From NCBI RefSeq assembly GCF_000151665.1, contig NW_013171827.1, forward strand, positions 703,066 through 767,065: a stretch of 64,000 bases of DNA. Direction: 5' to 3'. Shown here piece by piece: positions 580 to 15,648 of the stretch. Position 1 is the first letter of the stretch; each line of letters opens with the position of its first letter. The notes under the pieces were generated by a model. That model was not told where the DNA came from. It was given only the letters and a program-made list of their open reading frames with translations, and made no database searches. Made by a program: the position numbers and the translations under genes. This DNA comes from Blastocystis hominis. Its lineage: Eukaryota > Sar > Bigyra > Opalinata > Blastocystidae.

Positions 580-587
580 AACAAACA
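580..587 (-). terminator. TGTTTGTT 3'-end motif of the giant gene
   Basis: Exact TGTTTGTT on the minus strand, about 50 nt after the TAG (636-638) of the giant gene. With the 4-nt spacing seen elsewhere here, cleavage would fall at about 592. Confidence 0.6.
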
Positions 588-635: not shown

Positions 636-3600
636 CTAAGCAATATTCTTCATAATTCCTTCTATCTCTGCCTTGTGAAAAATGTCTTCGCATTCTGTTA
701 GAACTCCATCTTCACTTGTCACTTCCAGTACACCGTTCTCTACATCGAATGCATTCGGCGCTTGCAAATTGAGAATCGAATCGGCCAGATGCAGCGGGTT
801 CGCATTCCACACCATCTCAGGCAAGAAATGACTGAACATGTTCAAATAGGAACCGATTCCAATTCCCACAGCTCTCACCTTCATCGATAGCATCGCACTC
901 TGGATCTCATTTCGGACTCTGTCGGCCGTCACTCCGTTGGTAAACACCAACATCACAGTCGGCATATCTCTCAATGCACACGTCGATCCGGCCACTTTGA
1001 TCGTATGAGCAATCGATGTGGGTGAGTAGGGATTTAATGAGGCTTCATAAATCGGATCAAGAATGCTGTTCGTCCATAGCTGATCGGCAGAAATGCCTGT
1101 AGCGACGCGTGTTGTTTGTTCATGAGCGAGCCATACATCAGCGCACGCAATGCCCATCGTGCTGAGATTGCGCAGAACGGAAAACACGGTGAAAAGAGCG
1201 TGCTGGCGATTGAGAAGCGAGAACGCCCGCGACGAGCAGTCTATCACAATGCTCACAGCAGAGCGAGGACGGATGGTAGGAATGCACCAGTTGAAGAAGT
1301 CTCTCGTAGAACTAGCGAGAGACTGGTGATGTCGCAAGAAGGACACACTTCGGCCCTCAGATGCATACACGACATGAGACGGAATGGGAGGGGAAAGCAG
1401 AGTGGTGTAAAGCGCGTCTACAAGATTGTTGGAAGGAATCGGACTTTTTATGGAATCGATCAGATTGATAGTCTGCTCAACTGGCCTTATGCATTTGTCC
1501 ATTTCAGACACGACAGGGAGGGCACTCATCATGTTTTGAGTTTCCAGACCATACACACGAGCCATCGACTTCGTGCAAGGCCATTCTTCAGGGAACGTAT
1601 CAATCCATTCCCAAGACAGTTTGGGAGCCGGACTCATCTGGCAGTCTCTGTTGATCTCATCGGAAACCTTGGTGAAGGGAAGTTCTCCTAGTTTCCTCGC
1701 ATGCTTCAACAAGTCGGTTGCCGTTTCAATATCAAATCGTTTTTTGCCATTATCGAACTTCCTATTGAGCTCTTCGTTGAGATGGCTGATGTCTTCTCTG
1801 CTACAAGCTTTCGAAGTCTGAGTGAGGAAGAACAAATACATATTGGGATAAGAAGCTAGAGCATTTGTTATTTCATTAGGTCCTGAGAGAAGCTGCTTAC
1901 AGAACCCGTCGCTCACAATGAAGAAAAAGTCATCACGCTTAAAACGACCCTCAACGGAAAGCAAATCCAACGGTGATGAATCCACTACCTTCAAAAACTC
2001 CATATCGACGATCAGTGAGTACAAATCTTCCATGTTTCTTTTTGGACTCACAATCTCAGCCACTTTATATCGTCCACAAGATACAAATAGATGATACTCA
2101 AATCCGCATTCCACACAGAGAGTTACCAAAACAGAGGTAACGATGGATCGGACGCGACGAGTGTGACGATTCATCGAGCAATTCGCGTCAACGATAATAT
2201 CAATTGTCGATGTACACTTGTCTTTTAGCAGCTTTTTCATCTGTATCACCAATTGAGAGGAGAGTGAGTAGATTGTGCGAAGAATCGGCTGAGGCAGCTT
2301 CTTCTCAGATGGACTCACATCAATTCTTTTAATCTCGATCATCTTCGATCGACCCGCTGCTCGATCGGTCGCATTTGTTTCATTTCGTCTTTCGTAAATA
2401 TACTGGAATTGCTCGACGGTGCTCATCCCTGTCATGTTGGAGAATCGGCTTGTCGTTGGCTGATACTGCACTCTGTCTGTGCGATTCCACTTCAATGCAT
2501 GCGATTGCTTCAACGTCTCCAGGACCGTTTCCGCTTCTTTCTGAAGTGCATGACAAAGCTCTGTATCCTCTGCACTATTCTGGACAATTTCCAACAGTTT
2601 TTTTCTCTTATCTTCTTGATCTGTACACAGAATAAAGCTCAGAATGTACGAGAAATGATGCATAAACTTGTTGACATCCTTGTTCCGCAAAGAATTAATG
2701 TATCGCGATATGTCATTGTAGAGAGCAGGATTCGTCGTGACTGCATTTCTTGCTGGATGCGAAACCTCCTCTTTGCCGTAATGGAAAACAATGGTGAAAC
2801 TTTCACGAGCCGAAACAACTCTTGGTCCACAGTACTTTGCCTCAACTTCGAGTTTCAGTACATTATTCTTTTCTTTCTTCTCTTTTACCATCAACGCAAA
2901 CCCACCTTCCTTCTGAATCACATTACAATCTTTGCTCGTCAACCTCACCGTTAGCAAGCTATTTGTTCGAACTAACGGAAGCCAAAGCTCGTTGCCATCT
3001 CGTCCAATCACATTATCAGGAGCAACGTATTTCTTATTAACAGGAAGGGCGAATGAAACTTGTTCCCCGTCAAATAAGACAAAGAGTGCATCATGAAGCG
3101 TTAATTTAATATTGGGATAAGCAGCCAGTCTAGATACACTGGGTAAGTAGTATTTCATGAAGTTATCTCTAAGTTCTTCCTTTTTATGCAATCGATCGTT
3201 GATTGTTCTTTCTTCTGTTTGAAGAGTTGCAAGCCTTTCTTTTTTCTCCTGTACAGAGTTTAGCATTCCATTATAGCTATGAATGTCATTCGTAAAATTA
3301 GCAATGAGTGGTTCTTGGTTAACAACTGCAATAGGCTCTAATAATCTGGGAATAACCAAAAGGTTGTTAATCGTCCAGTGCATATAGATCGTATTGTTGT
3401 ATTTTCGAATCGGAAGCAGATCGTCTCCATTCTTTATATAATCACAACCAATTTCAGAACTTGATCCTGAATTAAACAGTTTAAAATGATTCTTGTCAAA
3501 ATAGAATGAATGGATCTTGGTATCAGCAGATGGATGCATACTTTCATAATACGTAATTATTTCGCTTTCTGTTAGATCCGGAGTTTCATATTGGAATTTG

Positions 3601-6600
3601 GTGATACGTTGCAAATTAATCATGCACTGCAGCAGCTTTAACAGATAGAGCATTTCCGTATCACTCTGGCATTTCCCAAACGGTGAATACTTGACCTTTC
3701 TTAATTCCTTGGTATCAGAATAATAGTACAACTCCAAGTAAGGACTTGTTGCATTTACAAAAGGATCAAAAGGTAATGATGAAGGATTGGCAGGAGTAGG
3801 AGATCCACGACGCTTTATAGCAACAGACTTAGAAAGATCTGTACTAGCAGGAGTGGATCCAGTAGTGTTTGTTCCAGTAGAAGATCCAGGTGGATTTGCA
3901 CCAGCAGGAGTGGATCCAGTAGGGTTTGTTCCAGTAGAAGATCCAGGTGGATTTGCACCAGCAGATGGTTTACTCCGTTTAAAGAAAGATAAAAATCCAC
4001 GTCGTTGAGTAGTCGAGGTAGGTTCAGAAGGATTAGCACCAGCAGATGACCTGTTTCGTCTAAAGAAGGATAACAATCCACTTCGTGAAGGAGTAGAAGA
4101 AGCAGGAGGAGGAGGAGTAGAAGAAGCAGGAGGAGATGAAGGAGAAGCAGGAGGAGATGAAGATACAGTGGAATTCATTGCAGATGGAGATGCAGACAGA
4201 TTTGTACCAATATTAGATCCAGCACCATTGTTCACAATCGAGGTCGGATCAATATCAACCTCATATTCCCACTTAAACGGGGCATAAGGAAGAACGAAAA
4301 CATATCCATTATGATACTCCAATACTTGTTTCAGCACTTTTGAACTAATGCTGATCGTAAAGTCCTTCGCATATTCATCCATTCCTTCAGGTGCCTTAAC
4401 TTTGATTTCTCGGCAACGAACATTTTTCGATACCCAAATCATCTGAATACAAAAAGGCTTGAATTTTTTCTCAAACGGAAAAGCACCAAACATTTTTCTC
4501 TTCATCGATAGCCATTTATCCATGTTAGAAGACACTCCTTCTTTCGTTAGGTTGTTCACAGCCATCATAAAACTACACATCTCAAGAGTTCTCATTCGTT
4601 TAACACTGCTCGTGTTTAGCTCCAGGACTACATTTTCACATTTATCAAAAATACTATTCTTTAGTTGCGTTGCTTCATTCTCACTATTGCGTAAATCGTT
4701 CTCTGCTTCTCTAACTTCATATTGCTTCTCATTCAGCTCATTGTTGATTTCATCATAAGCTTGCTGGAAGCTATCACGAAGTAATTTTATGTGGCAGTTC
4801 ATGACACTTTCAATCGAAATTCTGACACTATGCAAGGCCCACNNNNNNNNNNNNNNNNNNNNNNNNNNNNNNNNNNNNNNNNNNNNNNNNNNNNNNNNNN
4901 NNNNNNNNNNNNNNNNNNNNNNNNNNNNNNNNNNNNNNNNNNNNNNNNNNNNNNNNNNNNNNNNNNNNNNNNNNNNNNNNNNNNNNNNNNNNGTACCTTC
5001 TGCTATCAGAATGAATGCCCTAATGTATCCTTTTGATGCAAAGCTTGTAACATAGACTCCTTTAAATCATCGTTTTCCAAAGCATCTAGCATAATTCGGC
5101 CTATTAGAGTCTGTCTACGAGGACATAAAACATGTAACTTTTCTTTCATCGATAATCGGCAATTTGGCTCCCAAATAACCCTTACATTGTCTTTCTCTAT
5201 CTCCTTCTCTTCATCCATTATCTTTTCCATCCGAAATATCATAGGTGGGATCACGATATCTAACGACACCTCGTCTGAGAACGATGCATCCCACAAATAA
5301 TCCGTACAGACCGCTTGATGATAACTGAGTCTGTCAAGGGCAAGATCATTATCGATATTTCTCACCAAATGCACAGATTCAAGTTGAATCTTGATTGGTC
5401 TTCCTGGCTCATACAGTTCTCTAAGCAACGACGCATTCCTATCATCAGGAGACATTTCAGGATTTTCTTTCTTATCACATTCGTAAAATCCATATTCGCT
5501 CAATTTCTGTATTGCTTGCTTAATTTCATTCTCAGATTTTTCTTGGGGCATATAGAACGGATAATTACCATAATCCTCAACCAATTCCTTCCAATTCAAA
5601 TTCAAAAGAAGTTTTTTCAAGATCGAATTCAAAAGGATCAGCAAGAACGGAACTGCAACGAAAATATACTGGAAAGAATGCATTACATCGTTCATATCAA
5701 TGTGCAAGAAATCTTTTAGAACATCCGAATATTCACCCAAGACATACAAGTAATTCTTTGAACATTGCATTTTGTACAGTAAATGAGAGGTTCTAACAAT
5801 CATCCTGTTTTTCTCAGAGGAATATTTATATTCATCTTCGCAATCCTCGTTTCTGCATTGAACAATGGCTTCTGCTATATAACAAGGAATCATGGCATCA
5901 CGGAACGATTCTGTGATCAGTATTTGAATACTTCCACGCTTACTAATAGCACTCAGAATTTTGCTGTATGCATTCTTCTGTGATTCTTCCGAATCCATTA
6001 CACCTCTCAGAATGTGATCGTGAACTCTCTCTCTGTATGTCAGTAACTTGTCGTACACTCTCTGTAAATGCGAATTTTCCTGCAGTTCACCAGGAAGCTT
6101 GGCAATCGCCTGCTCGACACAATATATGCTTTTTCCCACCCAATTACTAGAGTCCAATGGCCGCAAAAAGAAAATATCTTGCTGCTGTGGTACACTGCTC
6201 AATTTTCTGTGAATCACATCCAATGCTTGGAACGAGACTTCACAAATGTCCGAGCGGAAGATACCCGAATTAATGATCGCATCGAAATAGCCAAAAAGAT
6301 CCTTGGCGAATTCAATAAGATCAGGATCCTTTAGCAATGCGGAGAGCTCATCCATGTTGCCAGGGCGTAAGAATATCATTTTCAGAAACTCGTACGACGA
6401 GCAATTGAAACAGTTGACAAAAGGCATATCTGGACTTCTAAGAAGATTACACTCCGGAAGAGGATGTGGACTAAAAGGAGGAATAAGAATCCATCGATTC
6501 AAAATACTCCTTAACATATTTTGTCCATCGTCATCATTACTATTCCTCATGGAAAGGATAGTATTGATTAAGACAACAACAAATTGATTATGGAAGCTTT

Positions 6601-9600
6601 CCCTCACATGCTCCAGAATAGGCAATATCGAATTTGAGATTCCTTTGGGAGAATAGAGTAGATCTGTTAATATCTTAATTAAGTACTTTGAAGCAAGCTG
6701 CGGATCTCGCCAGGTAAGCAGGTCATAAATCATATATTCCTCAGAATGAAGATTCATTTCTTGGGCAACAATCCGATTGTTGAATGGACGTCTTCCAAAT
6801 GCTTGCACAAACGTATCAGGCAGCTTGGAGTTAACCACATACAAGCATTTTTCAAATTGTTTGGCTTCCTCTTCTCCAAACATGGATGGATTTTCCTGTG
6901 GGTTTTCAAGCCAATAAAGTTCTTGAACGTCCATCTGTGTGGCGATAGGATCACAGTAAATACATAGGCTCAACTCGTTCAAATGCAGTCTATCTGCAGC
7001 CTCTTGACTCAGCGAAAAGAAGATTCTAGAACCAGGATAGAATTTTGACTTCGATTGATGCAAGGTTCCCAGCGAATTATAATTCGCTTCTTCCTTGAGT
7101 GTGGAATCGATTTGCTCCTCACAGAGTCCAGTTATCCAATCCTTCACTTCCGAAGAAGCTTCCTCAATTCCTTGGATATACACCCAACCACCCGTAGCCA
7201 GAACTTCTTCGAGCGTGATTTCCTTTGCGTAGCAACTACCTTCCTCCCTTGTAACAAAGACTGTTCCCTTTAAATCGGCCACCGTACTCTCACGATCCAA
7301 CGAAATAATGAGCAGCTCTCTCTGCTCCATCTTGGCCAACATCGATAGAACAAATGTCCTTCCAGAGAAACGACCACCGATTAATATCAGAGAGAATCTC
7401 CAAGACAACATGGCTGCCAGGATCTTGAACAACGTGACTCTTTCTGTTGTAGTCAGTTTCCATTCATCGAACTCATCCTCAGGATTGCATTCGACCGTAA
7501 TATCGAAGATGCCCTTGACAATGCAGCCATTTTCATTTCTCACGATCTTGACATCATCTATCTCTCGATATCCTAGCATCGCTTCAATTGCTTTTCGTTC
7601 AGCCTGCGGCTTCGTACACGCAATCAACAACCAAATGATATATCTTTCATCTTGGCCATGGTTTAGCATTAATTGTAGCTTATTGATATCCACTAAACTG
7701 AAGCTATACTTCTTGCCCATCAAGTTATGCATCATATCACTTAACGACCGAATAATCATCTTATTAATCTCCGCCTCCGAATACTGAACTTCTCGATGGG
7801 TGAGACATAAATCATAAAATGGCGAATACAGGGAGTGACTTTGAGTACTGCAAACGATAATAATATTTTGAGAAAGACTTATTTTTCCTTTGTTAATCAT
7901 TATGGATTTGCTGTTTTTCCACTGATAGAAAATAGTGTACACTAGTTTCTGCAATTTCATTGAAGCAGAGTCTAACTTATCTAGGAAAAGAAGCGTAGGA
8001 CTTTTTCTCTCTGTCGACAAAAACTTGTAAAAATCTTCTTCTGTAGTGCTAGTATACCACGCAAACGGATCGATGCCGTATCCATTCCTCTCGCAATAGT
8101 AAGTGATCACCCCATCAATCTTCCTTCCCCTCTCAAGCTCCACAATTAGTGGTATCTCACAATGATGAGCCATGAAAACCGAAATGTACATCTGAATGAA
8201 AGTTCTGAAATTCGTCTCATCATTCAGATCAATATCAACCAAATCAGTAATCTCCGGTTTGAATAGTTCAAAAAGCACACCCATATCATACTGATCACTC
8301 CACTCCGAAAAATACTTGACCAAACCGTCGAAAGTATTGTTACCGCGATAGGAACTCAGTAATTCTTTTCGGTTTAAGGAATCCGACTCAAGGCACAAAA
8401 CAAAAAGAGGAGGAATACTCTCAGAGTTTTGGAAATACTCCTTAATACGATTAGCTTTCTCAAGAACTGCTAACGGACAATCTATTGTCGTATCAAACTT
8501 GTAACGATCTTTGAACTGAGAAGATAACGCCGGACAGACTATTTGTGTAAACATTTCATGGTCTTCCACCATTCCAAGACGATGTTCCACACAAGATGAT
8601 AATAGTGTAGTTCGAACCGCTTCCGGTTCAACATCTTTTTTATGAAATAATATCGTATAAAGACGGGAACGCATTTGCTCATTCAACAAGTCCAAATTCT
8701 GGAAAACAATTAGTGAGGCGTGATCCCTACCAATTGCATTAATCAAGTTTCCAGACAAATAATCGTTCTTCCCAGCCAATTCAGAATAACTTGTGGAACG
8801 CTGACAATCAATTAGAATTCTTCCAGAATCAAGGAGTTCTGTGATATGGGACACAACATTATTGTCTCCCACCAGCAGGATAGGAACTTCTCTATTCTTC
8901 CATCCAATTGAATTCAATGAAAAAAGAGTGCGTAACAAGGAAGAATCTTCTTGCTCCAGAATTGGAGTACCAATACCACAAATAGTGAAAAATTCACCTC
9001 GATAGAGTTTTGAACTACTTTCGTTAAATGCCTCAACACGGATTTCAACAGATCTCAATGCACCAAGAGTGTGCTGAATTCGTTCTTTTAGAGTAATGTC
9101 ATTTGTATTCCAACTCTCCAGCATTCCTTCAATCAAGTGAGCTCTATCTTTGCGATCTGCATACAAAGCAACGCAAATCTTGAACGCATCGTTTCCAAAG
9201 CACAAATCACGAAACGTAAAAAACTCTGATACAGGTATTTGGTTGAAGGCATAGTCAATAAAGTGCCCTATAAAATCGTTATTATAATAAGATGGATCCT
9301 TATTTGAAGTACTTGGAGCGTTGTTACTTTGAGTATCTGCTTTCACATCTCCGCAACAAAAACTCTTCACAGTCTCTTTCTTCATCTCATCGATTTTTAT
9401 ACGTGGAATATAGGAAGGAAACGAAAAAGGAAGGGGATCATTTCCTGTAACCAAAAATAAAACTCGGAAATTAACATCAATAAGGGACGATTCATTTTCA
9501 TTCCAGAAAGTGGTTACGAAAGCATCGAGTATAGGTTGCAGGCATTCAAACAATTCATTGGAAAGATTTTCTGCATTTTCAAAGATGAGCAATTCACCCT

Positions 9601-12600
9601 TTTCTATTACTGACTTTAAAATCCCATCATGATGCGTTCCGTCGGCATCGGTAAATCCCACCAAAGAATAGAAGTCCGTGTCTATTGACAAATACACTAT
9701 TTTTGTATTTAATTCCATGTTACAGTCCTTTAATAATTCTTCCACAACTCTTAATTTTTCACTTGATTTCGGACCGTACAAGACAGTTGCCCGATTCTGC
9801 AATAAGCTGTAAAAGAGTTGATTCATGCACGGTATCTGTTCCACCAAATGTTTCATGAATTCCAGTGGTCGCTCGTTCACAATGTCATCTATTTTTTCTT
9901 CTATTTTATCCATCTTCACAACAGAATCGAGATAACTAATACAGCGATAGAGCTTCTTTCTCTGAATCATATCAGCTACTTTTCCATCAACAAGGTTTTT
10001 ATAAGAATCGAATACTTCTTCTGCACTTATATCTACATTCTTCTCGAATCGACTTGGCTTTTCTTTTCCTACATGAATCACGACGAAACGACCACGAAGA
10101 GCGGGCATCATTGACTTGAGTCCTTCCTCCGAGGTTGTAGCCACCACAACAAACTCAGGACTGAGTTCAAGTGTAGGATCATCCCTTCTTTCAATAAGAT
10201 TTATCTCCATCGATTGATTCGTATTCGATTTCTCTAAGAACGGAAGGATTCGATTTGCGACAGCGGAAGGAAGCAAATCAATTGAGAACATTTTGCAAAC
10301 AGTACCATTTGAGGCAGCATCGACAAATGCAGATGCGTTAAATCGAATCGAATGGTCATTCTCATAACCAGGTTCCTCATCCAATACATACTGACCGAGC
10401 AAAGGCTCTGTGCTCATTGCAGATGAGCAATACAGTAGAGATGCATTGACCATTCTTTCGTCCTGGATCGCTGCGCAGTATTTTCGAGCAATCCACTCTG
10501 TTTCCGCCACAAGAAGAACATGACAGTTTGCATCCAAACAGTATTGGATCTGTGTACAGACGCGATTCCAGCAGACACGATCTAGATAATCGTCTGTCAA
10601 CTTCACAGGAAATTCGATCACTGGGAACATGTCCATATTGAAGTCGTACACCATTTGAACAGCACACTGGAAAGCATTCACTCTATCTGTTGTAGGAATG
10701 GCCTTTGCCAATTTCCACACATTGAAGCAATCGCGAGGTGTGTTGCAATCGCGAGGTGTGTTGCAATCGCGAGGTGTGTTGCAATCGCGAGGTGTGTTGC
10801 AATCTCTGTGCAAAGGCAGGATCTGATTTATTTTATCCTCCGTTTCGAAAAGGGGAGTTAGCACATCTCGAACTAATTCAATACTAGGGGAATCATCCAA
10901 ATTAATAATGCGGAAAAAGGAAGAAAGGCAAGGATCCAGAGGATCATTCTCTGTATTATGCGTTCCAATCAATCGGAAGTCTGGATGCATAGCCAATCCT
11001 CCCATCATGCGTTTTGAAATATTCTCCATGATCTTCTTCAAAAGTGCAATTGGAGTAAACACGATTCCCTCGAGCAGCAGCGTTTTTCCGTGAAGGAAAG
11101 CATCTGCAAATACTCCGTTTTGCGCATTACCCCACAATTCGTCTCTCGACGACGAGGCGCTGCAGTAATAGATCACAAGAGGAATTCTAGCCGATTGACA
11201 ATAGCGACGAACGATCGTAGACTTGCCCGATCCACTCTTTCCAGAAATGATCACCGGAATACCATCCGCAATCACTTGGTCCATCCAGTTGCAGGTTTCT
11301 TGAGTTTTTTGTAGGTCGAAAGTTCGAATCGTATCGGAGAAACTGGTTTCACGATAAGGGTGAAGGATCAACGTTTTCTCTCTACCACTTACATTCACCA
11401 AAGCTGTATCTTGATGAGAATGGAAAATTAAGGAATCCGCCTTGCAAAACACTTGGATTGCTCTGTTGCGATCCATTTGGATAGTCACCAATTTGTTCTT
11501 CACATTCTCCACACAGAAGAAATAGATTGTATCTTGAATAATGTTGAGTGCGTTATTTTGCCGGATAAGAGGGAGAGTGAAAATCATACTGTCTTTATTA
11601 GGCAAAGAAGAGCTCGTTTCAAAGAAAACCTGGTCGCCAACAACAAAAGATTCAAGACATTCAGTCAGAGAAGACTTAAGAGACCTAAACTTCACATCTC
11701 CAGCGGGAGTTCTGTAATAGACATATAGAGACTCAATTGGTTTGCTGTATGCTCTGCGATTGCTGGCACAAATCAGAACCTCTTCGCTCCTCTGATACAG
11801 TCGATTACTACTCACTACTTCCCTCTCAGCGTTCGGGACCCATTCAATATGTGAGTGAACTATTGGAACACGCACATCATCTGCTAAATAAAGAGTAAAC
11901 GAAGGGTTTGTAATCCTTGCGAAATAGTTTCTAAGAGCTTTGCCAAGATATTTGTGTTCTCCTGCCACTACTGTAAAGTAGAAATACCAATATTACGTGA
12001 TAATGCCATACTGTTGTACTGTTTTCCAATGTGACGCTGCAAATAGGAGAGAGTATCAATTCCTATTTCAACCGAACAGTAACTATTGACTACGAATCAC
12101 ATCAAATATACAAATATAATAATACATGGAAGAGAAATCCTTTTCACAGTATACTTCGAATCATTGCAAGAATAAACGATGGCTTTATCTATGGAATCTA
12201 TTTTCACATTCTCTTTCATTTGCATACCTAGAATTTCGAATCGAACCAATGTGTCATGATAAGCATCCAGTAAGTCCTTCACTTGAGTGAACAATAATTG
12301 ATTCAATTCCCCTAAAACGATGATTCAAACAAGACAAAAATACAGAAACTAAGATATTGCGACCTATCCTTTGCCTTATATCCATGTTGCACCAATTTCC
12401 AATCGTGTACAGAAGAGGGTAACTTTAAGTAACTCCGGATTTCAAGAGAGAGCTTATTAATAACTATATGGGTGAAAATCACCAAAGAAAGAGTACCCAT
12501 GAAAGTGAGAGGACATTGATTGAATGATTCCACTTTACGGTTGACCTCCACAGGTTGTTGGCTGTTCTCAGTACAACAAATCACGTCCTTGTGCCCCTTC

Positions 12601-14403
12601 TTATTTTCCATAAAACGGGTGAAATAATATTGCACAGTTTGATCTTTCAGGAACGGATATTTCTCTGTTCGATTGTCTTCAACCGATATCATCTGTACGT
12701 ACTTATCTTGTTCAATATCGATCCGTAATGGGCCTACACGCTTCAATTCTTAATTACAAACGTACAGATAAAACGATCATTATCGTTCACTTCCAGAGAT
12801 AACATAGTTTCTTCCATTCCGAGAATATCCCTAGAATTCTCTCTGCATAAGCAGTAATCCTCTGGATAAGGCATCTTCAACCTTTCCTGCAGTATGGATT
12901 TGATTTTCATACCGGACGTTACAAAAATAATTATATCATTAACATAGATTTTGCATTCTGGAGCCTTATTATAATCTATTAATAAGTATGAATTTAGTAT
13001 GTATTCCTACAATTCAGACTTAGATCACCACGTATTTGGTAATCATCATCCAACGGTAAGGAAGAATGAGATAGGGTGAAATAGCCCTCTTCTTCAATCG
13101 TGCCCAGCCAACTACGGCGAAGATCTCTTATTGTCTTGCCCTGAGCAACTTGAATCTCATCCCATCGCGTTGACACATCAATATCATCAACTGAAATTCT
13201 CACTTTACACTTTCTTTGACTCGGCCTCGGAATTCTATTTTGTGGGATATGTTGCTGTTGTCGAATTGAAGGAGGTGGTCGGAGTGGTAGGGATGAATTG
13301 ACAGTAGCCATCATGCGGCCATCGGATATAGGTTGCAGCAATCTTTCGGTAGTGTCAATCGTATCCTGCATTGCTGAACTAAATATAACGTGAAATACTT
13401 AATTATTACCTTTTCGATCCCATTAATTCACTTGTTTCACCACCACCAACAACAACAACTACAGATCACAGATACACGTCAACACTACGTTGGAGAGGAC
13501 TGGAATCTGTACAATCGATTTCCGACATGAGCATTCCTTCATCGAGAGGTTGACTTGAGTCCTTTCTTTGATAGATAACGAAATTGGAAGAAGGCTCCTG
13601 TTTTCTCATTTTCTACATCTCAATCCTGGAATACAACAGCACATTGAGAAAATCTCCCACTGTCTTGAACTTGCGCTTTAAGTCAACATTCATCTTCCCT
13701 TTGAAGTTTACAAAAAGAGGCTGAGCCAGCTCCAAGTTCAGGTTTCCTCGCTTGATCAAATCTTGGAGTTGCTTCCCATCATCCAACAATTGCATACCCT
13801 TGGTTGTTACGTTAAACAATCTATAGGAGTTGACATCATTCTTGGAGCTGTTGCCACGAATATACTGCCGATAGAAAAGATATCTCAGATCCCCGATGGT
13901 CATTAGATTACTCGCAAAAATACTATTTTTTCCGATATTGTACTTTACAGAAACAATAATGTCGAGGCAATATATAAATATGGGACGAGAAGAGCCCGAA
14001 AACGGAACATAGTCACTCTCCAAGAGAATGACGTCGTCTACTTTCATACAATACTTTCGTTTTGTGTCCATTTTATTGCTGGAGATAAAATAATCCAAAA
14101 ACTGCTGAACAGTCACATTTGTCCAATACGCAAATTGTAGATTTGAATTATTGTAAACAACATCGAACTTAAACAGAGTAATAGGCGTTATTATACTCTG
14201 CGATGAGCATTGCCGATTGATAGGAATGGTAACATCGAGAGGTTGTGAATCAGCATAGAATGATACATTTTCAATTTCTGTATGCAGATATGCCTAGAAT
14301 TGAGATTTCAAGTGATCTTTACAATGAGTGTACTTGCATTGGCAATAATTGATTTATTACTGTCTATATCGATGTCTATATGTTTCCCTAGCCAGAATTT
14401 CAT
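636..14403 (-). CDS. Giant Ubl-repeat / AAA+ / VWA protein
   Basis: One gene of about 4,480 codons is proposed from stretches that otherwise look like six ORFs. Start ATG at 14403 (MKFWLGKHIDIDID). Ten introns restore one frame: 14294-14322, 13613-13642, 13459-13488, 13379-13409, 12976-13010, 12734-12765, 12312-12349, 12090-12125, 11968-11996 and 5020-5051 (29-38 nt). The first ~700 residues are a run of about seven similar ~80-residue units resembling ubiquitin-like folds. AAA+ modules follow: a perfect Walker A GKSGSGKST (about 11219-11250) and later degenerate P-loops (GPKSSEK, GGRFSGRT). After a Ser/Pro-rich region, the C-terminus carries two VWA-like domains (IIVDANCSMN; VFTNGVTADRV). 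The order AAA ring, then VWA, recalls midasin and related giant ATPases. A 150-N gap (4843-4992) interrupts it, so continuity there is inferred. Function unknown. Confidence 0.7.
3851..3964 (-). repeat. 57-nt coding tandem repeat, two copies
   Basis: Two nearly identical 57-nt copies (3851-3907 and 3908-3964) encode a Ser/Gly/Thr/Pro-rich 19-residue unit in the linker before the VWA part of the giant protein. Further Ser/Pro tracts follow to about 4200. Unit length is a multiple of three, so copy number can change without a frameshift. Confidence 0.85.
4843..4992. other. Assembly gap (150 N)
   Basis: A run of 150 Ns inside the proposed giant gene. The reading frames on its two sides are both open towards the gap once the 5020-5051 intron is removed. 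Confidence 0.99.
10728..10799 (-). repeat. 18-nt coding minisatellite, four copies
   Basis: Four exact copies of an 18-nt unit, followed by the start of a fifth, encode (RDCNTP)n within the first AAA+ region of the giant protein. The copies are identical at DNA level, so the array is recent and likely to vary in length between strains. Confidence 0.95.
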
Positions 14404-14447: not shown

Positions 14448-14455
14448 AACAAACA
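14448..14455 (-). terminator. TGTTTGTT 3'-end motif of SEC22
   Basis: Exact motif on the minus strand. Cleavage 4 nt upstream would fall at 14460, only two bases after the TAA (14462-14464), and 57 nt before the next gene's ATG at 14403. Confidence 0.75.
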
Positions 14456-14461
14456 CACTAT

Positions 14462-15351
14462 TTATCGAAAACGGAAGTAAACTACTATCAGTACAAATCC
14501 CACAATGAAAGCAAGCGGCGCATACTTTCGGAGCATCGTCTACGCTCTGATTCGCTCATTTCTTCCATACCATGTAATTCAGCTTCTTCGCTCCCCACTT
14601 GTATTTCTTCGAATCATCCATCAGCTGCTCGCTCGTCGCCGTCACATCTTTGTCTCACTGCACTTCCACTCAGTTACGATCAAGCTTTTCCACGCGATGC
14701 ACCACTTCATCGATGTTCTTTCGCATAATGTTCTGGATGTCGATTAGGTTTTCGCTCAGCTGCGCATAGCTGTCCAGACTGCTCGACGGCTGGTCGTACA
14801 GACGGCGTTTTGCCTGGATTTCCTTGTCTGCCGTTCACAACACAACGCAAAAACTACCAAAACGGGCAAATGCGTAGGGACGAGCGGTAGTTGCGAGAAT
14901 TGTCTTCCATCTACAGAGTAAGCACGATGCACAGCTCGAACTCGGTGCTGTTTTCAGTCTGCACATAGTTCAGGAAGGATGTTTTCACATCTTCCAAAAA
15001 CGCAAAGATCGCACGCTTCTGCATGTTCTTCTCCGTCAAGGTCAAGAAACACAGGTTTTCATAGATCAAATAGCTGGAAGGGGAGCGAAGGGAACCAACG
15101 ATACCTGAAGCATAAGTCGCCGGATGTCACTTGCATTTGTGTCGCACTACTGCTAGAAAGGGATTTCAGCAGTTTTTTCGACTAGGGTCAAGCGAATTGA
15201 AGGAATGCTACTTCATCCTTAAAGGAATCGATATCACGTCCTGCCTCCACAGTTGAGAGCATGGATGTCACCTAGGTCTAATTCCAGTCCCTGTAGAAGG
15301 TACAAAGATAAGTCCATCTGTCACTCTACCTACTGAAGTGAGAAAAAACAT
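14462..15351 (-). CDS. SEC22: SEC22-type longin R-SNARE
   Basis: Membrane-anchored R-SNARE for ER-Golgi vesicle fusion. The 15351 ATG gives a longin domain (MFFLTSVGRVTDGLIF, GRDIDSFKDESKKLL, LTEKNMQKRAIFAFLEDV), then the hallmark TTARPYAFARFDKEIQ, a SNARE helix (NIMRKNIDEVVHRVEKLD) and a C-terminal membrane helix (YAPLAFIVGFVLIVVYF) just before the TAA. Seven introns of about 30 nt were placed by frame: for example GTTCGA...TGTAG of 31 nt before the TARPY exon, and GTATGG...CGTAG of 31 nt before the anchor. The domain order and anchor are those of SEC22 rather than YKT6, which lacks a membrane helix. The gene is packed tightly against the giant gene downstream. Identity is confident. Confidence 0.93.
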
Positions 15352-15578
15352 AAAAATAGTAGTATAAAAAACAAATAAGGGTGAAATAATCCTTCGATAA
15401 TCAAGAAGGCAGCTTTTCATTTTTCGATTTTTCGATGTTTCAGTACGGAATCGACTATTTGCAGTGTATTACAGATGTGTAAACTCCATTCAATTTAAAA
15501 TGAAACTGAATCAGACAATAAATATGAATTGCAGGAGGATTTTGGCATTATATGAAAATAAAAGTATTAATAATAAAT

Positions 15579-15648
15579 GCAATAGCCGGGAATCGAACCC
15601 GGGCCTGATCCGTGGCAGGGACCTATCTTACCACTTGACTACTATTGC
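15579..15648 (-). tRNA. tRNA-Gly (GCC)
   Basis: On the minus strand the 7-bp acceptor stem GCAATAG/CTATTGC closes a cloverleaf with anticodon loop CTGCCAC (anticodon GCC) and a T arm containing GGTTCGATTCC. No intron and no encoded CCA. Confidence 0.93.

Follow-up and report, generated by a model that had tools for sequence, protein, structure and literature searches.

A diverged and probably motor-dead member of a family of Ubl-AAA-VWA giant genes in Blastocystis hominis

The stretch of DNA analysed here (the window; 64,000 nucleotides of Blastocystis hominis contig NW_013171827.1, positions 703,066 to 767,065) contains on its reverse strand a predicted giant gene whose protein combines an N-terminal chain of ubiquitin-like (Ubl) units, a ring of six AAA+ modules and a C-terminal pair of VWA domains. 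The gene belongs, as a diverged member, to a family that occupies 15 loci of this genome, and the family, with its constant motor and variable heads, is a more striking finding than the single gene. Computation gives the architecture and its conservation, a closeness to midasin, a loss of catalytic motifs in the window protein and a mosaic relationship among the sister loci; the explanation to which we lean slightly is a midasin-like Ubl-AAA-VWA family of which the window protein is the motor-dead member. The whole gene and its principal exons, of which exons 10 and 11 encode the bulk of the protein, are as follows.

636..14403, reverse strand: whole gene (exon chaining and translation; inner poly(A) motif not found on this strand)
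13643..14293, reverse strand: exon 2, 217 aa, two Ubl beta-grasp units and the start of a third (AlphaFold, Foldseek, VIA-align; homologues at nine sister loci and in P0005-P0009, which are short separate protein entries matching this exon)
5052..11961, reverse strand: exon 10, six AAA+ modules and the first part of the linker, with a doubtful modelled 3′ border (Pfam AAA_5; profile of relatives against midasin)
636..5019, reverse strand: exon 11 as modelled, a coiled-coil-like and Pro-rich linker, VWA1 and VWA2 (exon chaining; relatives read through from exon 10)

Used as a query, the VWA part retrieves the window gene and 14 other genome loci (15 matches from 16 candidates), and AAA_5 matches are present at the same 14 sister places (23 of 135 candidates were scored, and the window gene is not among the rows listed). 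At 12 of the 14 sisters both searches give an open frame of equal length (4,024-4,961 aa), which is therefore read as one frame spanning the AAA and VWA parts; at the C24 and C5 sister loci the AAA and VWA frames differ (3110/1330 and 2801/1433 aa), which may stem from an intron, from a fault in the assembly or from a copy that is broken. A search with the Ubl exon gives 10 matches among 11 candidates (E 3e-9 to 0.04), one of them the exon itself; each of the other nine is followed on the same strand, 2.0-4.1 kb downstream, by a sister AAA_5 match. The order of Ubl chain, AAA ring and VWA pair in one gene, which an earlier note on this DNA had proposed, is conserved, with heads upstream at these nine sisters and all parts in the single chain of P0017.

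Among proteins, exon 10 has four relatives (P0001-P0004; 4 of 4,795 candidates at E<=0.001), which are unbroken proteins of 3,368-3,699 aa with 97-98, 72, 51 and 32% identity to it. The protein of sister C15 matches 76 of 3,861 candidates at E<=1e-10, comprising 11 of family type and another 65 that have the midasin lid PF17867 in their printed domain lists. Two of the 11 family-type proteins carry an organism name, Blastocystis in both cases; confinement of the family to Blastocystis is something we can only infer, because the remaining nine carry none. In a midpoint-rooted tree of the 15 genome loci, P0001-P0004 and P0010-P0018 (P0010 being the same as C14), in which 13 of 24 inner branches are well supported and P0004 is flagged for an odd letter make-up, the window gene groups with P0001, P0002, P0003 and P0004 at a support of 100/100.

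The earlier note had regarded the domain order as unlike that of any described protein, and no family description was found among the listed literature on Blastocystis midasin/VWA or Ubl-fused midasin, a scope outside which lie bioRxiv, subscription journals and supplements; with 15 family loci the order is nonetheless no lone oddity. The word 'Willebrand' does not occur in the consulted portions of the main texts of Blastocystis genome papers, and in those of one Blastocystis paper a 'Midasin-like protein' is merely listed in a table of single-nucleotide polymorphisms.

AlphaFold models exon 2 as two Ubl beta-grasp units (protein residues ~70-137 and ~138-221, the confidence being good for one unit and moderate for the other) of beta-beta-alpha-beta-beta-beta topology, and Foldseek with this model finds linear di-ubiquitin (E 7.3e-6). 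A beta-grasp fold in the N-terminal units, on which the earlier note had staked its proposal, is predicted in exon 2 by AlphaFold, Foldseek and VIA-align alike. Its count of about seven Ubl units goes beyond what is shown: two are modelled in exon 2, a third is completed across intron 2, and the remainder is pattern only. The units are internal to the chain. An annotated Blastocystis protein, P0017 (5,255 aa), has an N-terminal Pfam ubiquitin match above the cut-off (E 6e-7) in the same chain as AAA and VWA parts. Pfam detects no Ubl in window exons 2, 5 and 6 or in L037, L038 has a CLU_N match below the cut-off (E 0.0034), and a ubiquitin-family search of the genome gives 23 rows, all of them outside both the window gene and the sister loci.

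Exon 10 matches Pfam AAA_5 in four stretches (E 3e-23) and has six modules once aligned with its sisters. The motif alignment has ten rows (the window protein, P0002, P0003, P0004, C15, C8, C6, P0011, P0017 and P0018) and so includes three of the 14 sisters; P0001, which is without AAA1, was left out. In the window protein none of the six modules has a Walker A together with the DE pair of Walker B, and the aligned motif table places the following.

11219..11242, reverse strand: AAA1 Walker A, GKSGSGKS, intact
11066..11080, reverse strand: AAA1 Walker B position, LLLEG, DE pair lost
9755..9775, reverse strand: AAA3 P-loop position, degenerate, GPKSSEK
8120..8140, reverse strand: AAA5 P-loop position, degenerate, ELERGRK
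7355..7375, reverse strand: AAA6 P-loop position, Arg for Lys, GRFSGRT

All six sister-type rows (C15, C8, C6, P0011, P0017, P0018) have the DE pair in both AAA1 and AAA5 and the Walker A of AAA5, and four of them have that of AAA1 (in P0017 and P0018 its second Gly is replaced by Ala or Ser). In the window clade (the window protein, P0002, P0003 and P0004), AAA1 has Walker A in 4/4 rows and the DE pair in 0/4, and AAA5 has neither the DE pair nor a complete Walker A in any row (P0004 reads GxxxxGK, but has Arg at the Ser/Thr position). AAA3 is without the DE pair in all ten rows and has lost Walker A in the window protein and P0002, with Walker A present in P0003 and P0004; AAA6 has Arg for Lys throughout the window clade and, like AAA3, is without the DE pair in every row, and AAA2 and AAA4 are degenerate in 10/10. 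The AAA1 and AAA5 losses are common to all four clade rows and are therefore old, the protein having been kept afterwards. Judged by its motifs, the window protein is very probably a pseudo-ATPase; passages of one report state that four midasin modules are catalytic (PMC11603028).

The earlier note had pointed to the remodelling or extraction of large complexes, which does not follow for the window protein because the catalytic motifs are incomplete in every module. That it is an active AAA+ remodeller, with its Ubl chain docking on the ubiquitin or proteasome machinery, is accordingly difficult to maintain and we consider it unlikely: the Ubl fold and the AAA and VWA parts are real and the AAA1 Walker A is kept, but in the window gene, P0002, P0003 and P0004 alike Walker A and the DE pair never occur in the same module, and Pfam matches at E<=1 in exons 10, 11 and 2 include no ligase, protease or proteasome domain. 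Nothing was found in these Pfam searches to support the suggested link of the Ubl chain to ubiquitin or proteasome biology.

The C-terminal VWA pair anticipated by the earlier note is supported as a fold, by AlphaFold models, Foldseek and VIA, and has no Pfam match.

1665..2315, reverse strand: VWA1, midasin-MIDAS-like, with metal-site positions DANCS (2175-2189) and SDG (1905-1913)
762..1271, reverse strand: VWA2, with a degenerate metal site (DCSSR, TNG)

The best VIA match of VWA1 is the metal ion-dependent adhesion site (MIDAS) domain of midasin, and its metal site reads DANCS, S and SDG against DxSxS..T..(S/T)DG, with Asn for Ser and Ser for Thr. The midasin MIDAS domain binds UBL domains (PMC6624252), and folds of the receptor type (the MIDAS-like VWA1) and of the ligand type (Ubl) share one chain here. 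The open reading frame of sister C15 (L028) continues for ~600 residues beyond the VWA pair, without counterpart in the window gene, and ends in a third VWA (Pfam VWA_4 E 3.7e-8), whose DTTGSM motif is intact; P0017 has DCTGSM at that place. The C15 stretch before this third VWA has, in our own reading only, a putative glutamine-amidotransferase-like look.

Midasin (MDN1/Rea1) is the best match among solved structures when a four-row profile of the relatives is compared with the PDB; single exons used as PDB queries yielded no useful match, so that the profile was needed. The two share six AAA modules in one chain, a long linker and a C-terminal MIDAS-type VWA, and we regard a midasin-type kinship of the window protein as probable. 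In contrast to midasin, the window protein has a fused N-terminal Ubl chain, a second VWA, lost catalytic motifs and multi-copy sisters. The midasin AAA lid PF17867 has no match at E<=1 in exons 10 and 11, and no midasin-like acidic stretch is present (at most 24% Asp plus Glu per 100 residues); the genome's own midasin, a separate gene on the same contig, has the lid domains and reaches 56%. Three loci of NLE-type UBL (PF08154; G000:C8:255360, C24:960910 and C24:1009879) are likely to encode the ligands of that midasin. A second midasin acting in ribosome assembly, for which midasin being the closest solved relative and the MIDAS-like VWA1 could be adduced, is thus at odds with a genome that already has a midasin gene of its own along with NLE-type UBL loci, with a protein without the lid match and the acidic stretch, and with variable-headed sisters that are ill-suited to one fixed essential job, and we consider it quite improbable.

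Bacterial MoxR-vWA systems pair the same AAA clade with VWA, and NorQ and NtrC/FleQ types (for AAA) and the NorD VWA (for VWA1) are side matches in the PDB, but in those systems AAA and VWA are separate proteins rather than a single chain; some have been interpreted, in passages of one paper, as conflict systems (PMC7159879), which nothing in the window data shows. Dynein heavy chain also has an AAA ring of a related clade, and the dynein-type match in the window gene is a weak AAA_7 alone, below the cut-off. A dynein kinship was rejected, as the stalk, lid and C-terminal Pfam domains are absent, though found in the genome's dynein C18; of the dynein/midasin-like AAA+ part described by the earlier note, the midasin half stands, with six modules and the PDB profile, and the dynein half does not. 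RNF213 is likewise a giant with six AAA units. The comparison with it fails, and kinship was rejected: there is no ligase domain (no Pfam match at E<=1 to an RNF213-type RING/ligase module in exons 10, 11 and 2, exons 3-9 having been scanned partly), no PDB profile match at E<=1, and VWA domains are present instead.

The sister loci are mosaics. Over the 91 pairs among 14 sisters, AAA1 is 92-98% identical (about 95%) with a proportion of synonymous differences (pS) of 0.06-0.14 (about 0.10), and the VWA pair is 58-98% identical (about 65%) with a median pS of 0.60; the Ubl heads, compared over ~80-120 residues each in the 36 pairs of the nine sisters with a head match, are 19-44% identical (about 28%) with a median pS of 0.77. 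Sisters C2 and C20 share 98% identity in the tail and 97% in AAA1 but 28% in the head, and C38 and C34 share 96%, 95% and 36%. The C2/C20 tail (pS 0.05) is younger than the motor (pS 0.12), and an exchange of parts is therefore favoured. Along the frames of three sisters (C15, C8, C6), taken 150 codons at a time, pS is 0.05-0.24 across the six AAA modules (C15 151-1800) and mostly 0.3-0.9 in linker and tail (the exceptions being a C8/C6 stretch at 0.11-0.23 and C15/C6 values of 0.28 and 0.29), with linker protein identity falling as low as 24%. Because low synonymous change is confined to the AAA ring, this suggests that the ring is kept alike through gene conversion rather than protein constraint alone. 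In the C-terminal part, the ratio of nonsynonymous to synonymous change (dN/dS) is 0.16-0.50 for six chosen pairs in an analysis of 12 of the 14 sister loci (C23 and C5 were left out), and the sisters are therefore maintained as proteins.

An assembly effect, in which similar AAA stretches have joined the wrong heads and tails, would fit the C2/C20 and C34/C38 pairs, with their nearly identical VWA parts and dissimilar heads. Such wrong pairing does not explain why identity stays at or below 44% in 36/36 head pairs but at or above 92% in 91/91 AAA1 pairs, and we give this account of the mosaic little weight.

If the active sisters work like midasin, their MIDAS domain would take hold of a partner that carries a UBL, and the ring and linker, powered by ATP, would pull this partner from a complex, with the variable Ubl heads selecting different clients. 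Alternatively, the Ubl head could serve as an internal ligand, keeping hold of the VWA until displaced by a client. This other reading of the Ubl chain is suggested by the UBL domain being the known partner of midasin-type VWAs (PMC6624252), and by analogy we tentatively propose a latch, in which Ubl and VWA make contact within one chain or between members of the family. The window protein would retain the Ubl and VWA contact parts without the usual ATP hydrolysis, and would bind one nucleotide at most, at AAA1. Since it should not hydrolyse ATP in the usual way, a non-motor partner role appears the most likely one, as scaffold, brake, competitor or regulator of the active sisters, although we place this somewhat short of probable. 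More speculative, and doubtful as a whole, is a receptor-like repertoire of giant extractors with an AAA motor homogenised by gene conversion, changing Ubl heads, variable linkers and VWA tails and a UBL-MIDAS latch, each gene having another target (foreign, competing or self), in which the window gene would be a conserved motor-dead member setting or holding the others.

Several observations weigh against these proposals. The link between Ubl head and VWA1 is drawn by analogy only, and no position in the window Ubl units could be matched to the acidic residue with which UBL ligands complete the metal site of midasin. The Ubl model has a mean predicted local distance difference test score (pLDDT) of 62.5 and the other four models 31.9-50.3, and the VIA-align fold search is not specific to ubiquitin, FERM and RA domains scoring equally or slightly higher. 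The Foldseek list for the VWA pair is headed by a two-VWA protein of a mussel, with MIDAS entries in fourth and fifth place, and Asn replaces the middle Ser of DxSxS in VWA1 in 27/28 rows. The head search found none for five of the 14 sisters (C15 gives merely E 4.3).

Few eukaryotes are as common in the human gut as Blastocystis. By a rough count the 15 giant genes take up ~1% of its genome, and a constant motor with variable heads points to diversifying pressure. With a MIDAS receptor and a UBL-type ligand fold in one chain the family is also a natural test of the midasin mechanism, for which active-looking and motor-dead versions are available for comparison.

The gene was modelled by a script that chains exons across GT..AG introns and translates them (X for the N run), from an ATG at 14403-14401 to a stop at 638-636 with 11 exons and 4,484 aa. 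This agrees with the single frame of ~4,480 codons, joining stretches that look like separate ORFs, of the earlier note. The remaining exons, together with the poly(A) motif, are listed here.

14323..14403, reverse strand: exon 1, 27 aa (chaining)
13489..13612, reverse strand: exon 3, completing with exon 2 a Ubl-like pattern at residues ~220-283 (pattern only)
13410..13458, reverse strand: exon 4, short, the least certain of the exons (chaining only)
13011..13378, reverse strand: exon 5, low-complexity linker and Ubl-like pattern at residues ~358-424 (pattern only)
12766..12975, reverse strand: exon 6, Ubl-like pattern at residues ~431-495 (pattern only)
12344..12733, reverse strand: exon 7 (chaining only)
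12126..12311, reverse strand: exon 8 (chaining only)
11988..12089, reverse strand: exon 9 (chaining only)
580..587, reverse strand: poly(A) motif of the gene, TGTTTGTT (motif scan)

Nine of the ten mini-introns (29-38 nt) of the earlier note are retained, as GT..AG introns of 26-36 nt connecting exons 1-10. The tenth, a modelled GT..AG step at 5051-5020, was rejected: a 150-base N run (4843-4992) lies beside it, and P0001-P0004 (4/4) read through and retain the residues cut by the model, so that the exon 10/11 junction looks like an assembly gap or problem rather than an intron and the exact protein length near it is unsure.

According to passages of one report, TGTTTGTT is the Blastocystis poly(A) motif and lies four bases past the poly(A) site (PMC4159000). 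On the reverse strand it occurs just beyond the stop codon and at 14448-14455, at the end of the upstream gene, and the motif scan found none between 587 and 14448; inner poly(A) sites, which would have spoken for separate transcripts within 636-14403, are thus not indicated on this strand, an absence that is supporting and not decisive because at the window density (27 sites against 3.9 expected) ~3 sites per strand would be expected over the gene span. The short introns and this motif density also fit Blastocystis as the organism. Two genes, a Ubl-repeat protein from exons 1-9 and an AAA-VWA protein from exons 10-11, would account for P0001-P0004 beginning near or inside exon 10 and for the heads P0005-P0009 being separate short entries. 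P0005-P0008, however, continue into and end within the equivalent of window intron 2, like unspliced gene calls, P0003 and P0009 are both listed with a longest contig of 18,431, and, with no poly(A) motif found between the parts and all parts in the one annotated chain of P0017, we regard two genes as highly improbable. A decaying gene, the dead copy of an active sister, would have lost its catalytic motifs and the third C-terminal VWA of C15 and might carry an N run as the window copy does, but it is scarcely credible given four unbroken relatives and the old AAA1 and AAA5 losses common to the whole clade.

An 18-bp tandem repeat (4.3 copies, 10727-10804) encodes NTPRDC-type units in exon 10, of which relative P0001 has one, and tandem repeats at 3846-3964 and 4089-4163 encode the Pro/Gly/Ser-rich linker of exon 11 and are mostly missing in P0003 and P0004. 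Upstream, the end of a gene on the same strand (14458-14726) encodes a putative VAMP-type SNARE, as judged from its translation, and a tRNA gene is located at 15578-15648 on the reverse strand (Rfam).

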